Made by a program: the position numbers and the translations under genes
The notes under the pieces: model-generated
Seen by the model: only the letters and a program-made list of their open reading frames with translations
What the model was told of the DNA's origin: nothing
Databases searched by the model: none
Shown here: piece after piece, positions 59,301 to 61,117 of the stretch
Numbering within the stretch: the stretch's first letter is position 1
Layout of the letters: each line of letters begins with the position of its first letter
Origin: Leuctra nigra
Lineage: Eukaryota > Arthropoda > Insecta > Plecoptera > Leuctridae
Assembly (NCBI GenBank): GCA_934045905.1
Contig: OW203762.1
Span: 23,530,345 to 23,594,344 of the forward strand
Length of the DNA stretch: 64,000 bases
Direction of reading: 5' to 3'

Positions 59301-61117
59301 ATATTTCGGGCATATTCTTACTTGGTTAGTTATGCTTATGAATTATGTATCTTTTATTGATTACTGTGAGGTAAGTACACTGAATATTTGGAACATTTGT
59401 ATACAAGTATGAATTATAAAAGTAGTGGGTTGAAATAATTTATTTATTTCAATTCTAATTCAATTTGAATAAATAATCTGGCTTCGTAATATTGTAATTT
59501 TAAGAAAACAATTTTCATCTCTTGCCTGAAATTCAAAGAAGTCTTCTTCCATATTCTACACTGGATGAGCAGTTATAACATACCTAACAACCTTTTGGAT
59601 TTCTATAACCAAAACAGTTGTTGACAACTCTGTACTTTTGTTGAAAATGAATCAAGATATTGACAGCATCAAATTACGATTGTCACAAAAATATCTCGCC
59701 TATGACACCACAATACCTAGTGAAAGATGCTACAATAATAATACTAATAGTTTGTTTTATAAATATTCAGTGCTTCTGTCTTTCTTTGATGACATAATAT
59801 TGTTTCCAGCATCGTCGATCCGCCACAAGATTTTGCCGTACTGGATAGTTAAGAATAGCTGGGGCCCGTCATGGGGCGAAAAGGTGAGATCTAATTTCAT
59901 TATCTACTGTTGCTTTCAGACTATCCGCTCTTTAAAAAGTCCCTGCCATTCTGGATTGTAAAGAACAGCTGGGGTGAATTTTGGGGCGAACAGGTATGCT
60001 TCATGTGTTCATTAATATTATCAATTTAAAAATTAAAATACATTATTTTTAATAATAATTTAAAACTCTAACATAAATAAGAAGTACTACCTACTTCTAA
60101 ACATTTAAATTAATTAAACATATGATAGCCTTAAAAACCAATTTAAATGATAATAAATTGTTAATAGGCACCGAGTGTTGATTCTCTTTTGTTGACTCTC
60201 AAAAAATAGCACCTCGTGACGGGATCCTCATACCCTTAGTTGCAGCAGTCGGTAAACATTAGGTACTCATTGTATGCATTCTTACAAAAATACGCCACAG
60301 GATATTTCGCTGTGCAAAATGTATGACGTGTCAAAAATTCCACTGAATTTGATCAAATTATTAGTTTGCTCCTCTCTTTTACTAATTCTGAGCTATTTTG
60401 AGTACTCTGTTGATTTTTATCGGTTGCTATGGCCACGACCAATGAGAGATGAAAAAATTGTAGTTTTGCCGATTTCTCTCGCTAGTTTTTTTTTTTGTAT
60501 GGGGCTTAATGTCACACTGTTCTGCAGCGAGGCTAATGGCGACGGATGAATGATTATGATGATGATTGGGAGATGATGGTGAAGAGTAGGTAAGGATGGA
60601 AGGTGGGAAGGAGGCGGTCGTGGCCAATTTATTAGTAGGGTACCTTCCCAGCATTTGCCTGTCGACTGAGGGAATACAACGAAAAAACCCCAGTCAGGAA
60701 GGAGGGCCGCGGGAATCGAACCCGGGTCTCCGGAATACAAGTTCAGAGCGTTAACCACTCACCCAACCTGTTCCGTCGTCTCTCGCTAGTGGCGCTGGGG
60801 GTATGAACGCACGGTGCCTATAGTACCAGCCAATTTTCTACTGTCTAGTATCATAAAAAATGTGTGCCCATCGGTTTTTCCTTTAATATTAAATGAAAAC
60901 CCCCAAACCAATAGATATTAACATATTTCATATTTAGAAGACGTGCAATGTCATGAAAATAAAATTACGATATGCTCAGATTCATATCAGTAATGTTTTC
61001 ATATTGAATTTTGTATTTACCTCACCTCTTCTCGTCCGCCAGGGTTACTACCGCGTCTACCGCGGAGACGGCACTTGCGGGGTGAACCAGATGGCAACGT
61101 CCGCCATCGTGGGCTGA
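29115..61117 (+). CDS. CTSF: Multicystatin-cathepsin F precursor, 16 exon positions
   Basis: Joining the exons listed separately, with either exon 15a or 15b, gives 1139 codons in frame with GT/AG at all borders. Order: signal peptide (about 1-25, cut near AVG/Q); six cystatin-like domains with QxVxG or close variants (QVVAG at 246-250, QLADG, QVVSG, QTVAG, QVVAG; the first domain is divergent); an I29 propeptide (exon 10) with an E-R-F-N-V-Q spacing like the cathepsin F ERFNAQ motif; and a C1 papain-type protease with Gln938, Cys944 (CGSCWAF), His1080 ([11 protein letters not shown]) and Asn1106 (NSWG). The architecture matches the insect multicystatin-cathepsin F precursors. RTKR/RKR/RTSR sites lie between domains. 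Likely lysosomal or secreted. Confidence 0.93.
30057..30196. repeat. Foldback MITE, about 140 bp
   Basis: The ends ctagattcacaaaaagtatt and aataccttttgtgaatccag are imperfect inverted repeats, with a second internal inverted pair (taatacgta/taatacatatta). It lies in CTSF intron 1. Confidence 0.6.
30381..30550. repeat. Foldback MITE, 170 bp
   Basis: agtacacacgacacattcg and its complement (gtgtcgtgtgtact) form the ends, with further pairing inside (gaattggat/atccaattc). It is in CTSF intron 1. Confidence 0.65.
30650..31251. mobile_element. hAT-type MITE, 602 bp
   Basis: Ends tagtgttg and caacacta are flanked by 8-bp tcactctg at 30642-30649 and 31252-31259. The sub-terminal regions are made of gaaaattttc repeats. 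It is in CTSF intron 1. Confidence 0.85.
31533..31739 (+). CDS. CTSF: CTSF exon 2: end of cystatin 1
   Basis: 69 codons, phase 0 both sides, acceptor gattatttcag, donor gttgat (weak). It encodes [19 protein letters not shown], a run with four Cys, and [13 protein letters not shown] [19 protein letters not shown]. If the weak donor were ignored the frame would stop 15 nt later, so splicing here is required. Confidence 0.85.
32178..32504 (+). CDS. CTSF: CTSF exon 3: first half of cystatin 2
   Basis: 109 codons, acceptor ctgttttcag, donor gtgaga. An acidic linker is followed by [20 protein letters not shown] and ends ...AKAQKQ. The Gln of QVVAG is the last residue of the exon. Confidence 0.9.
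33118..33998 (-). mobile_element. Helitron-like element, about 880 bp
   Basis: In minus sense it ends with ctcatcaacgcgtttcaca, a short stem and ttcctag next to t. It shares its body (motifs such as caccaatcgatctgaaattt and aaatcctcccattggttaaa) with 52523-53377, which is in the opposite orientation. No coding capacity. The 5' border is approximate. It is in CTSF intron 3. Confidence 0.55.
35189..35460 (-). mobile_element. LINE 3' end fragment
   Basis: aataataataataaatatct followed by ttatttttagagcgaagtta is, on the minus strand, a LINE 3' UTR ending in (ATT)n repeats. No coding part remains. It is in CTSF intron 3. Confidence 0.5.
35553..35831 (+). CDS. CTSF: CTSF exon 4: second half of cystatin 2
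   Basis: 93 codons, acceptor accgccag, donor gtaaga. It begins [18 protein letters not shown], completing QVVAG, then a PWL-type second hairpin ([14 protein letters not shown]) as in cystatins, and ends in a Glu/Asp-rich linker. Confidence 0.92.
36332..37994 (-). mobile_element. 5'-truncated Jockey-like LINE
   Basis: On the minus strand an RT coding region runs from about 37985 to 36584, then a 3' UTR and a tail of ttac repeats (36332-36355). The short repeat tcag at both borders may be its target duplication. The 5' end is cut inside the RT domain, a common result of incomplete target-primed reverse transcription. Confidence 0.82.
36584..37985 (-). pseudogene. Reverse transcriptase fragment of Jockey-like LINE
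   Basis: The frame is open from the truncation point through [66 protein letters not shown] and the catalytic FADD box ([12 protein letters not shown]), to the stop at 36584. It lacks the endonuclease and the N-terminal part of the RT, so it cannot be autonomous. It is open throughout, so it is young. The first internal Met (37732) is only an accident of the truncation. Confidence 0.85.
38037..38275 (+). mobile_element. LINE/SINE 3' end with (TACT)n tail
   Basis: The sequence ends aataaagatacttacttact, resembling in reverse the tail of the neighbouring Jockey-like LINE. Only an untranslated 3' part is left. Confidence 0.4.
38291..39058. mobile_element. TA-duplicating MITE, copy B, with a nested MITE
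   Basis: It has the same ends as copy A, in opposite orientation, flanked by TA at 38289-38290 and 39059-39060. Its body is split by an unrelated MITE at 38385-38930. Comparing A and B reconstructs the empty sites of both insertions. Confidence 0.78.
38385..38930. mobile_element. Nested TA-duplicating MITE, 546 bp
   Basis: Ends ggtctgttcgttttgcttac and its complement (gtaagcaaaacgaacagacc) are flanked by TA. The sub-terminal region is rich in ctgca. It belongs to the same family as 25461-25630 by its first 11 bases. Confidence 0.8.
39955..40284 (+). CDS. CTSF: CTSF exon 5: cystatin 3
   Basis: 110 codons, acceptor cttgctcacag, donor gtaggt. It encodes [20 protein letters not shown], the variant inhibitor loop QLADG, and [15 protein letters not shown]. 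The QxVxG valine is replaced by Ala-Asp, so inhibitory strength is uncertain. Confidence 0.92.
40655..40685 (-). CDS. SLBP: SLBP exon 5 (short C-terminus), tentative
   Basis: 31 nt after the acceptor ttgatttcag encode VDSVLDFSE and stop, in the phase left by the previous exon. Chosen because both upstream RBD exons end at a gtatgt donor, so another exon must follow. Confidence 0.5.
40655..43157 (-). CDS. SLBP: Tandem-domain histone stem-loop binding protein, nested gene
   Basis: It is nested in CTSF intron 5 on the other strand. Exons 43157-42562, 42328-42203, 41608-41264, 40922-40797 and 40685-40655 join to 407 codons plus stop; every intron is phase 2. Two SLBP RNA-binding domains are encoded: about residues 170-240 ([44 protein letters not shown]) and about 327-397 ([44 protein letters not shown]). 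SLBP binds the 3' hairpin of replication-dependent histone mRNAs for processing and translation. The TPNK motif reads TPPK and TPPM here. It could instead be two adjacent genes or alternative modules; the shared phase makes one polypeptide possible. Confidence 0.78.
40797..40922 (-). CDS. SLBP: SLBP exon 4: RNA-binding domain 2, second half
   Basis: 126 nt, acceptor attttcag, donor gtatgt. It encodes [40 protein letters not shown]. It is the same length and phase as its paralogue at 42203-42328. Confidence 0.88.
41264..41608 (-). CDS. SLBP: SLBP exon 3: acidic linker and first half of domain 2
   Basis: 345 nt, acceptor ttatttcag, donor gtattt. It is open from its acceptor ([19 protein letters not shown]), so the methionine inside need not be a start. 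It ends [19 protein letters not shown]. The [10 protein letters not shown] linker before the domain mirrors that of domain 1, so the duplicated unit began about 25 residues upstream of the RBD. Confidence 0.85.
42203..42328 (-). CDS. SLBP: SLBP exon 2: RNA-binding domain 1, second half
   Basis: 126 nt, acceptor acgttacag, donor gtatgt at the same codon position as in the second copy. It encodes [40 protein letters not shown]. The frame would read on 65 codons to a stop at 42007 if the donor were skipped, giving a single-domain form. Confidence 0.88.
42562..43157 (-). CDS. SLBP: SLBP exon 1: N-terminal region and first half of domain 1
   Basis: 596 nt, ATG at 43157, donor gtaggt. The first about 165 residues are polar and low in conservation. 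It contains repeated YAE motifs ([17 protein letters not shown]) and the [16 protein letters not shown] linker before [12 protein letters not shown]. The ATG is the first in an open frame, but an additional 5' exon cannot be excluded. Confidence 0.85.
44234..44970. mobile_element. hAT-type MITE, 737 bp
   Basis: Ends cagggccggttttagg and (complement) ...cctaaatccggccctg are flanked by 8-bp agtcttca (44226-44233) and agtcttta (44971-44978), one mismatch. It carries an internal duplication of about 100 bp (near 44707-44806 and 44835-44935) and a small nested foldback at 44371-44483. Confidence 0.85.
44371..44483. repeat. Small foldback MITE, 113 bp
   Basis: cagggctctgattctacaac and its near complement ending gaatctgggccctg enclose a pairing core (gctagcaatt/aattgctagc). 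A related copy is at 57408-57512. Confidence 0.7.
44979..45133 (-). pseudogene. 5' part of an unknown ORF interrupted by a hAT MITE
   Basis: From an ATG at 45133 the minus strand encodes [20 protein letters not shown], then an acidic run ([12 protein letters not shown]), and stays open to the MITE border at 44970. Acidic coding-like sequence ([17 protein letters not shown]) resumes on the far side near 44200-44140. The start resembles N-termini of domesticated or piggyBac-type transposases only in general composition. Identity unknown. Confidence 0.3.
45506..45796 (+). CDS. CTSF: CTSF exon 6: cystatin 4
   Basis: 97 codons, acceptor ccacttgcag, donor gtaagt. It opens with the last strand of the previous domain and a basic site (HHRRTSRQ), then [20 protein letters not shown], the loop QVVSG, and the C-terminal Cys pair. 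Confidence 0.92.
46092..49073 (-). CDS. LINE ORF2: endonuclease-reverse transcriptase
   Basis: 993 codons. The apurinic-type endonuclease is at about residues 35-275 ([38 protein letters not shown]). The reverse transcriptase is at about 480-770 ([52 protein letters not shown], catalytic YADD in [11 protein letters not shown]). The C-terminal [20 protein letters not shown] motifs are typical of RTE-related LINEs. It begins inside the end of ORF1 in another frame (19-nt overlap). Confidence 0.93.
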   Translation of the reverse strand: MEKEKIGAGRVGETGGKGIGRNRPVRKVRKGNVVKIGTLNIVTLNGKIEEIIDMMEERKIELLGMSETKWKGVGEKECRGGYKLFWSGGAEGRNGVGFVVSPKLRGLIVGVENHSERSIKASLLMKNKVKVDIIQVYAPQTGRPAAEKEIFIQELENNITSNTIIVMGDFNAHIGEDRTGVEGVMGHHGWGKRNVEGEKMLEMCGRNGLQVGNSMFHKEKRKKITRYGHGEEATESVIDYICVGKELRRFLEDVEVIPSVALDSDHRLLVGKFSVKKDHAAKRRSKKNGRIKVWKLQSHTVRQEFREKIASSERIGEVGQVEEEWQTFKKVFVESAEEVCGRSSGRSKKKETPWWNEIVREAVRQKRTAWQTYEADRSTLNKAEYRRWKIRVRETVEEEKKKSMEELAGKLETDFEGNKKMLYGIIKEKRTRKVGQACMVDACGGLINDPVEVQALWKEYFKELLNVDGVALPESSGILQSENEEEEKCALREGEVEKALNEMKNGRSPGIDEITVEMVRAAGEIGKRWLFRVMSAVWKQRTIPDDWRKGVIVPIYKKGDRKKCSNYRGITLMCQCAKVFEKVVEFRLKEVVEEKLREEQYGFRPGRSTIDPIFTIRQVMERKWESGEKLYMVFLDLEKAYDRLPRKKVWECLKRKGVGLGLIERIKSTYEKNESCVQTVEGKTGWFEVKEGLRQGSVLSPTLFVIVMDELLRKVEPSEDQETNTLVYADDIVVWGETSECVQEKIDRWSQMTEEYGMRISQEKSETLVMERKATRNVKIRLRGLELAERGEFKYLGSWLTKDGKIGREITSRVQQANTFFQLVRKLLWNEQFPQKCKILLFKSYFLPILTYGSVTWAIGGKEESQLQAAEMKFLRSIQGVTKMDKIRSEKIRGDLKVERLAFKMGRERLRWFGHMKRMQRERIPRREFEAARSDKRRVGRPREKWRELVAEDVQERLEKWEEVEEGRWWEDRKKWKKLVEKKNEEEEPSLAS
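49055..50758 (-). CDS. LINE ORF1: PHD finger, acidic coil and SGNH-like domain
   Basis: 567 codons. An N-terminal PHD-type zinc finger spans residues about 23-70 ([20 protein letters not shown] ... YHFPC, then WVCSSC). A Lys/Glu-rich coiled-coil-like middle follows. The last about 170 residues resemble SGNH hydrolases (GDFSGG block, [13 protein letters not shown] block, W-H-E-R-I near the end). Such ORF1 proteins bind element RNA or membranes in related LINEs. It overlaps ORF2 by 19 nt, suggesting reinitiation. Confidence 0.82.
   Translation of the reverse strand: MAAVEVGKSVRGRKDVVTSSVKCPVCEIGVHTGLKCEGCGIWYHFPCVGQNKKKYKAGSNSEWVCSSCKSGVKGTSCKEQEVNLPAVDIGRKAHKDSNSEDSEGSVGRIKSPTGKMVKKKKNQTEKLVNWILEQIKYEEEEGREKSRMGRKRRTVLKSEVVKGMVATFMWMNGRMVEMERKIDDLKKKQGMTKEVMHKEREEVLWPEKECEQQEEQKLKGLQKEKVSETTEDQTNDEEVVRQEIGSEHQEDEILNETEGKQNHQASEEEVGPLVKEKEKEAEIEGDQELVVAEKDPDIPVYADEDPGDERAPAEVQAAPRGPDSSVQGSQSPGGHPVPFDRAVSRGPHLHQPLCLFRRPQAVEVQPLLLSQRVDATRELEDNPQLEASPGEPRCSGIKALLIGDFSGGTGTGFCGQEGFRADAFPGVGTKSLAEEIGRYVIRDTTDSVMLFVGNRDLRDGKSRDEIEQDTRQLINAAKEKFGPDTKLFLSGMLTHQGIWPREVNNTRRDVCQENGVWHVIGKRPRREDRRWEWHERIGANLRKTVEEKVDGRMAVGFRSLVVWRKKK
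50790..50968 (-). mobile_element. Helitron-like fragment
   Basis: Sequences such as tttcagacaattggttgaacgg and agtgacgctcgct match the 5' portion (minus sense) of 33118-33998. It is truncated by, or adjacent to, the LINE. Confidence 0.45.
51101..51445 (+). CDS. CTSF: CTSF exon 7: cystatin 5
   Basis: 115 codons, acceptor gaatgtgcag, donor gtgagt. [19 protein letters not shown] finishes the previous cystatin (PW-like AW loop). TRTKRQ is a furin-type site. The next domain, [19 protein letters not shown], carries QTVAG. Confidence 0.93.
51687..52314. mobile_element. TTAA-flanked MITE, 628 bp
   Basis: Ends ggtggctgtatatcacgtga and its near complement are flanked by TTAA at 51683-51686 and 52315-52318, the piggyBac-type duplication. 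The body has no coding frame. It is in CTSF intron 7. Confidence 0.72.
52400..52524. repeat. Perfect palindrome of two tRNA-like halves
   Basis: Two 50-bp arms are exact reverse complements with a 25-bp loop. Each arm contains a T-arm-like/B-box sequence (gtgggctcaaatcccacc). No complete tRNA cloverleaf can be drawn, so I do not call a tRNA gene. It abuts the 5' end of the Helitron-like copy. Confidence 0.85.
52523..53377 (+). mobile_element. Helitron-like element, about 855 bp
   Basis: It is the reverse-oriented sister of 33118-33998. Its 3' end reads atcaacgcgttactcagagc, then gttttcctag; the aacgc/gcgtt stem sits a few bases before CTAG and the next base is T, as in Helitrons. A long T-run lies near its 5' end (52568-52590). 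It is in CTSF intron 7. Confidence 0.58.
53776..53940 (+). CDS. CTSF: CTSF exon 8: end of cystatin 5 and cleavage site
   Basis: 55 codons, acceptor gtgaacag, donor gtatga. [19 protein letters not shown] is the second hairpin of domain 5; CRRKRQ is a strong convertase site before domain 6. Confidence 0.92.
54379..54585 (+). CDS. CTSF: CTSF exon 9: cystatin 6
   Basis: 69 codons, acceptor cctgttcag, donor gtgagt. [19 protein letters not shown], then the loop QVVAG and the TSCRKPSS Cys region. Confidence 0.92.
55324..55630 (+). CDS. CTSF: CTSF exon 10: end of cystatin 6, cleavage site, I29 propeptide
   Basis: 307 nt, acceptor cctgttgcag, donor gtgagg, ends in phase 1. [17 protein letters not shown] closes the cystatin and SRTKRS is a convertase site. 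[20 protein letters not shown] and the E-x3-R-x3-F-x2-N-x3-V-x3-Q pattern form the inhibitory propeptide. Confidence 0.93.
55868..56834. mobile_element. hAT-type MITE, 967 bp
   Basis: Ends cagtggcgtgca and (complement) gcacgccactg-type are flanked by the perfect 8-bp ctacctac at 55860-55867 and 56835-56842. A GC-rich palindromic patch (ggggggcaagcccccc) lies near 56740. It is in CTSF intron 10. Confidence 0.88.
57046..57197 (+). CDS. CTSF: CTSF exon 11: end of propeptide, start of mature protease
   Basis: 152 nt, acceptor gttttcag, donor gtactg. [15 protein letters not shown], then the mature N-terminus [19 protein letters not shown]. Gln938, the oxyanion-hole residue, is the last codon. Confidence 0.93.
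57408..57512. repeat. Small foldback MITE, 105 bp
   Basis: gggccctgattctataactc and its near complement (gagtgatagaatccc) share core sequence ttagcaattatttcaatgtt with 44371-44483. It is in CTSF intron 11. Confidence 0.65.
57631..57727 (+). CDS. CTSF: CTSF exon 12: catalytic cysteine
   Basis: 97 nt, acceptor tgtctccag, donor gtgggt. [19 protein letters not shown] contains the nucleophile Cys944. LLSLSEQ follows. Confidence 0.94.
58303..58505 (+). CDS. CTSF: CTSF exon 13
   Basis: 203 nt, acceptor gtgtcgcag, donor gtgcgt. [20 protein letters not shown] and [18 protein letters not shown] are standard C1A motifs (GCxGG Cys pairing, Y-P-Y). Confidence 0.94.
59023..59179 (+). CDS. CTSF: CTSF exon 14: catalytic histidine
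   Basis: 157 nt, acceptor tgtctctcag, donor gtgagt, ends in phase 1. [20 protein letters not shown] and [13 protein letters not shown] carry His1080. Confidence 0.94.
59810..59883 (+). CDS. CTSF: CTSF exon 15a: catalytic Asn, first version
   Basis: 74 nt, acceptor attgtttccag, donor gtgaga. It encodes [20 protein letters not shown] then SWGEK, with Asn1106. It enters in phase 1 and leaves in phase 0. It is followed after 36 nt by a second version. Confidence 0.88.
59920..59993 (+). CDS. CTSF: CTSF exon 15b: catalytic Asn, second version
   Basis: 74 nt, acceptor ttgctttcag, donor gtatgc. It encodes [20 protein letters not shown] then FWGEQ, aligned residue for residue with 15a and keeping Asn1106. 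The [11 protein letters not shown] lead-in is closer to typical cathepsin F sequences than that of 15a. Both versions have splice sites and identical phases. Confidence 0.87.
60486..60778 (-). mobile_element. tRNA-derived SINE, 293 bp
   Basis: On the minus strand it starts with a tRNA-like head with an A box (tgggtgagtggttaacgc) and a B box (gggttcgattccc). It ends with ttaagccccatac and a poly(A) run (60486-60496). An 11-bp duplication, tctctcgctag, flanks it at 60475-60485 and 60779-60789. It is in the last CTSF intron. Confidence 0.88.
61043..61117 (+). CDS. CTSF: CTSF exon 16 (C-terminus, stop)
   Basis: 75 nt, acceptor gtccgccag. [20 protein letters not shown], then AIVG and TGA (61115-61117). 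It is the canonical end of a C1A protease. Confidence 0.94.
   Translation, partial: GYYRVYRGDGTCGVNQMATSAIVG

Follow-up and report, generated by a model that had tools for sequence, protein, structure and literature searches.

The stretch of DNA analysed in this study (hereafter the window) comprises 64,000 nucleotides (nt) of Leuctra nigra (Plecoptera; Leuctridae), corresponding to positions 23,530,345 to 23,594,344 of the forward strand of contig OW203762.1 (assembly GCA_934045905.1). On its forward strand it contains a gene identified from its sequence as a cathepsin F with cystatin domains, in which the exon encoding the catalytic Asn is present in two neighbouring versions, termed here exon A and exon B. 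We conclude with high confidence that these are tandem copies of one exon, that both types occur in insects and in crustaceans, and that exactly one of the two is predicted to be included in each mRNA. All positions given below are counted from the first letter of the window.

With exon A or exon B alike, the gene is read as a single open frame of 690 residues that runs from 45506 to 61117 and ends in ATSAIVG followed by the stop codon. The exons of this chain encode, in order, cystatin domains (45506-45796, 51101-51445, 53776-53940 and 54379-54585), the propeptide with its I29 inhibitor domain (55324-55630), the boundary between propeptide and mature enzyme (57046-57197, reading ...TPVKNQ), the catalytic Cys (57631-57727), a further part of the catalytic domain (58303-58505), the catalytic His (59023-59179, shared by both forms), the catalytic Asn (exon A or B) and, in a shared last coding exon (61043-61117), the C-terminus with the stop codon at 61115-61117. 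An additional cystatin-domain exon of the same gene (39955-40284) lies outside the 690-residue chain, and weaker cystatin matches extend upstream of it to about 29 kilobases. Long reverse-transcriptase-like open frames, by eye of the non-LTR retrotransposon type, are found on the minus strand within introns of the gene (36584-38011 and 46092-50764).

Pfam analysis of the 690-residue protein revealed three cystatin stretches (PF00031), PF08246, the I29 propeptide and Peptidase_C1 (PF00112), the last scoring 245.2 bits in the A form and 244.5 bits in the B form, and the GSCWAF, LDHGV and KNSWG motifs which carry the Cys, His and Asn of the catalytic triad are all present. The best solved relative is human cathepsin F (PDB 1m6d, 284.7 bits), the next structure reaching 230.5 bits. 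This top match, together with the Peptidase_C1 score, the triad and the order of the cystatin and I29 domains, bears out the initial annotation, which had called the gene a cathepsin F from the letters alone. An ERFNAQ-type propeptide motif is a mark of cathepsin F, and inspection by eye of the propeptide of the present gene revealed the spacing E-R-F-N-V-Q, with V at the position of the A. The arthropod cathepsin F (CG12163) shares the same layout of cystatin, I29 and C1 domains, and the catalytic part is mostly 67-77% identical to arthropod cathepsin F records among the matches listed, with 76-77% identity to a termite. In a tree of 48 hand-chosen rows, calculated from the propeptide and catalytic part with the A/B block removed, the window gene was not firmly placed, its nearest neighbours by path being Cryptotermes and Gryllus. 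A protein search of the genome, in which 20 candidates were scored, revealed no second cathepsin F locus; the 15 matches outside the gene were 31-49% identical, and a paralogue was discarded as the explanation for the exon pair.

Exon A (59810-59883) and exon B (59920-59993) are each 74 nt long, are entered in phase 1 and left in phase 0, and contribute 25 residues that include the catalytic Asn. Each has its own acceptor (ttgtttccag/CAT for A, ttgctttcag/ACT for B) and its own donor (AAAAG/gtgaga for A, AACAG/gtatgc for B), and the two are separated by a gap of 36 nt (59884-59919) which itself begins with gt and ends with ag. The intron ahead of exon A (59180-59809) measures 630 nt, or 740 nt when B is chosen, while that past exon B (59994-61042) measures 1049 nt, or 1159 nt when A is chosen; the shared upstream exon ends GGC GTT CAC A and the shared downstream exon begins at 61043 with GGT TAC TAC. 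In both exons the frame is open and WIVKNSWG is intact, and the two differ in the loop that leads into the Asn strand (TSSIRHKI in A, NYPLFKKS in B) and in the two residues after NSWG (PS in A, EF in B). The positions, lengths, separate splice sites and equal phases given in the initial annotation proved exact to the base, and its statement that the catalytic Asn with WIVKNSWG is kept in both copies was confirmed in the translations.

The tandem duplication which had been proposed is substantiated by the resemblance of the two exons, as 47 of 74 nt (64%) and 14 of 25 residues are identical. Shuffled versions of exon B gave 18.5 ± 3.8 identities with exon A, with a maximum of 31 over 2000 shuffles, and when both strands of the window were scanned for places sharing at least 40 of the 74 positions of exon A, only exon A itself and exon B were found. 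Spacings of the form AG-74-GT occur 410 times in the window, 141 of them open in phase, and just two contain NSWG. Over the 25 codons the proportion of differing sites between A and B is 0.77 for synonymous (pS) and 0.26 for nonsynonymous positions (pN), and within the 11-residue core all six synonymous sites differ as opposed to one of 27 nonsynonymous sites. Such silent saturation around a maintained core is as expected of an old pair in which both copies are under constraint, to judge from the sequence; silent sites have turned over yet the core is kept, and this would not be expected of an unused copy.

The anatomy of the locus further suggests that the two exons are not used together. When exon A is joined to exon B, or when the 36-nt gap is retained between them, translation ends at a TAA, the 14th codon when counting begins with B, in agreement with the earlier claim that use of both exons breaks the frame, while skipping of both likewise shifts the frame. 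The claim that the gap is too short for normal splicing also holds, the other 11 introns of the gene model spanning 433 to 5304 nt and the gap thus lying twelve times below the shortest. The gap holds a CTAAT motif resembling a branch point, with its A at position 11, 25 nt before the end of the gap. According to PMC7969005, a distance from donor to branch point of less than about 50 nt is too short for simultaneous assembly of the spliceosome, and a gap of 36 nt puts any branch point under this limit, so that splicing from A to B would probably be blocked. In the mechanism which we propose, no branch point would be far enough from the donor of exon A for U1 at A to be accommodated at the same time as U2 at B; the donor at 59179 would be joined either to A, with B being skipped on the way to 61043, or directly to B past A, and any escape products carrying both exons or neither would be out of frame and likely degraded.

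Both types of block could be traced in other arthropods. Three protein searches, from which the best 120 of 4733, of 921 and of 1419 matches were retained, yielded 264 distinct proteins. The A type reads TSIRHKxLPYW in insects and TTKYLHRRQPYW in decapods, and the B type reads xYPxFKKxLPFW; by a simple motif, 53 of the 264 proteins were scored as A only, 186 as B only, two as both and 23 as neither. As these labels are motif-based they are partly circular, and the comparison of blocks within a species is more independent. In the cricket Gryllus bimaculatus the last 330 residues of two records (P0212 and P0253), which sit on contigs of equal size, are identical but for 12 residues, all of them within the block, one record being A-type and the other B-type; farther towards the N-terminus, a piece is also skipped in one of the two. 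In the crayfish Procambarus clarkii (P0235 and P0133) the last 290 residues are identical but for 10, again all within the block, and N-terminal differences are also present. Single gene models in which an A block precedes a B block were found in the mayfly Ephemera danica (P0042) and the crab Petrolisthes cinctipes (P0084), which ranked first and third among 1419 matches when A and B together were used as the query. In both predicted proteins A is cut short ahead of B, and we infer that this truncation is the gene finder's way to keep the frame. The second-ranked record of that search, Notodromas P0015, was considered as a further fused model and was left uncounted, for it carries only an A-type block together with a repeated upstream segment and residues resembling a retained intron.

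When the blocks of the five two-block species (the window gene, Gryllus, Procambarus, Ephemera and Petrolisthes) were compared with each other and with 18 further blocks hand-picked from the 264 proteins, each of the ten resembled blocks of its own type in other species more than the partner block of its own gene; in Ephemera and Petrolisthes the A block used was a truncated one. Among the blocks compared, exon A is nearest to the A-type block of Macrosteles (88%), its five best matches (73-88%) all being A-type, and exon B is nearest to the B-type blocks of Penaeus vannamei and Petrolisthes (88%), its five best matches (81-88%) all being B-like. Since A blocks resemble the A blocks of other species more than their own B, the duplication most likely predates the split between insects and crustaceans, as far as may be judged from sequence comparison.

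Environmental records of both types are found on contigs that are little larger than the coding sequence, namely P0031 (585 residues, 1817 bases) and P0116 (607 residues, 2167 bases) for the A type and P0025 (620 residues, 2167 bases) and P0110 (contig somewhat longer than its coding sequence) for the B type; because the gene has many introns, contigs of near-coding size are as expected of spliced transcripts. Outside insects and crustaceans (P0151, P0186, P0232, P0239 and P0257 being the records noted here), blocks of a more or less A-like kind were observed in Limulus, ticks and amphioxus, that of Limulus being nearly undecided between A and B, and the spiders and scorpions examined have B-like blocks. 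The A/B pair may be older than Pancrustacea, a matter for which 25 residues are too few to decide. A third kind of block (HDRLFHRELPYW, RNAFFNKRMPYW) was noted in records of the bee Andrena and others (P0242, P0245, P0248 and P0251) and of the ant Ooceraea (P0246), which are possibly paralogues or a further exon version.

Mutual exclusivity is supported by the exon anatomy and by these records of relatives, and several observations weigh against it or against the age and constraint attributed to the pair. The limit of approximately 50 nt was derived from vertebrate and viral introns, and insect spliceosomes may tolerate less. The relatives were compared as proteins and the short gap is known from the window gene alone. 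The record pairs of Gryllus and Procambarus are annotations, as are the crustacean and insect records labelled as "isoform X". In the lead-in segment pS is 0.66 and pN 0.56, silent and replacement change thus being about equal, and selection on this segment is unproven from the A/B pair alone. The initial annotation had proposed that the exon pair be aligned in related species, and when this was performed on proteins, Gryllus, Procambarus, Ephemera and Petrolisthes were found to agree with it, while eight of the ten arthropod species in which two cathepsin F records were seen showed one type only: A twice in Ischnura, Macrosteles, Diorhabda carinulata, Penaeus japonicus and Scylla, and B twice in Drosophila busckii, Harpegnathos and Eufriesea, with both types being seen only in Gryllus and Procambarus. 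The proteins in the database are grouped at 90% identity, and isoforms that vary nowhere but in the block are hidden by such grouping; the count is therefore not strong evidence in either direction.

The same count would favour the notion that this species makes use of a single exon and that its partner is a relic in the process of loss, as would the single type seen in most of the listed relatives and the B-like blocks of the fly, wasp and moth cathepsin F records examined. This we consider improbable, since both copies remain open with splice sites and catalytic core intact despite silent saturation, and since the five best matches of each exon are of its own type. An origin as a recent tandem repeat or assembly artefact is scarcely credible: a scan of the genome with PF00112 did reveal protease exon arrays, with about ten near-identical copies of a last exon at one locus (L009) and four copies of a cathepsin L exon at another (L010), yet the copies within these arrays are 97-98% identical, while A and B share 64% of their DNA sequence and have separate counterparts, of A type and of B type, in other arthropods.

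As to how exclusion is achieved, an unlikely alternative to the short gap is that one exon is masked, either by a regulated repressor or by pairing of the RNA, with nonsense-mediated decay clearing the mistakes. Repressors or RNA pairing control many of the known exclusive pairs, and in Dscam exon 17 steric hindrance and RNA structure reportedly act together; moreover, double use of A and B gives a stop, and the upstream intron contains a perfect 12-nt inverted repeat (59378-59389 and 59761-59772). This repeat may nevertheless be due to chance in A+T-rich sequence, none of the seven inverted repeats detected within 59180-61042 was convincing as a basis for RNA pairing, and the 36-nt intron already lies below the proposed minimum from donor to branch point, steric exclusion needing no added factor. 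The early stop that follows double inclusion might also be read as an off switch, that is, as regulated non-productive splicing. We regard this as very improbable, for the 36-nt intron is unlikely to be removed and its retention would have the same effect, which makes a second copy with a conserved catalytic core needless.

If, as we favour, one of the two exons is chosen for each mRNA, both mature enzymes would retain the Cys, His and Asn of the triad as well as the S1' Trp, which we take from papain-family structure to lie within the A/B block, and would differ in the hairpin loop and the two residues after NSWG. Structure models of the two crayfish forms, A and B (mean predicted local distance difference test score, pLDDT, of 64.6 and 67.8, respectively, with the catalytic part mostly above 70 per 10-residue block) display the same strand-hairpin-strand arrangement around the block, the hairpin strands comprising residues 461-472 and 479-488 in the A form and 460-472 and 477-485 in the B form. 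In these models the block supplies a beta-hairpin turn as well as the strand that leads into the catalytic Asn. A comparison of the crayfish A model with the PDB gave procathepsins and human cathepsin F as matches; by alignment, human cathepsin F (1m6d) has the same triad and fold and is six residues shorter in the very loop that is varied by the exon pair. Cystatins contact the S1' side of the papain-family cleft, and in human cathepsin L the cut that yields two chains falls in the loop corresponding to the A/B hairpin. The differences in the loop and in PS versus EF would be expected to tune the binding of substrate or cystatin. As a prediction, the swap would likely act on how substrate or cystatin is bound at the primed side, or on whether the loop is nicked, and would leave catalysis in place. 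A bolder proposal, which we offer tentatively and think possible rather than probable, is that the catalytic block has been switched by splicing since before the insect-crustacean split and that the choice sets the hold of cystatins on the enzyme, including that of the tandem cystatin domains of its own precursor.

Exclusion by the position of the branch point has a precedent in the exclusive exons of alpha-tropomyosin, a muscle structural protein, where the branch point lies near the upstream donor, as in the proposal made here, and the intervening intron exceeds 36 nt in length. OGDH exons 4a/4b and Drosophila Cacophony exemplify tandem duplicated exon substitution events, in which homologous neighbouring exons are used one per transcript (PMC7969005 and PMC9741552). 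Exclusivity in OGDH is described as being enforced by branch points too near the donor (PMC7969005), and the Cacophony exon pair as being common to insects and crustaceans and at least 530 million years old (PMC9741552). OGDH is a metabolic gene and Cacophony an ion-channel gene, whereas the pair described here swaps a catalytic-triad segment of a protease. The open-access literature, consulted mainly through titles and the openings of abstracts, yielded no description of an exclusive exon pair or an alternative exon at this site in any cathepsin; in PMC8791509, PMC10484617 and PMC9767951 the terms "cathepsin" and "mutually exclusive" occur without being linked, neither "cathepsin" nor "peptidase" occurs in the main text of PMC9741552, and "cathepsin" is absent from that of PMC3303723.

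The exclusive exons known in most detail are those of channels, muscle and adhesion proteins (PMC9741552). The A/B pair belongs to a known kind of exon arrangement; the swap of a catalytic residue of a protease is unusual, and the pair is apparently very old. If the present reading is true, a catalytic-triad segment is swapped in insects and crustaceans and proteases too can be re-specified by splicing, the two forms provide a natural enzyme pair for asking which loop residues set the choice of substrate and inhibitor, and arthropod gene models which contain one form only, or both fused, need correction.

The exon arrays found elsewhere in the genome are of a different nature, and the possibility that A and B form a similar recent repeat was discarded in view of the 97-98% identity within the arrays and of the inner copies at L010, which by eye do not have the acceptor of the first copy. 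At L010:3142-3975 a 208-nt unit which includes a cathepsin L catalytic-domain exon is repeated four times at 97% identity, a clear AG acceptor being visible by eye in the first copy only. At L009:6984-8395 a cathepsin B/TINAG-like gene has its last catalytic exon in approximately ten copies, 98% alike, with a period of 142 nt; each has an acceptor-like ttccag and, by eye, all but the final copy are closed by an in-frame stop that follows IASWVLDVF, making a recent array of alternative last exons possible at that locus.

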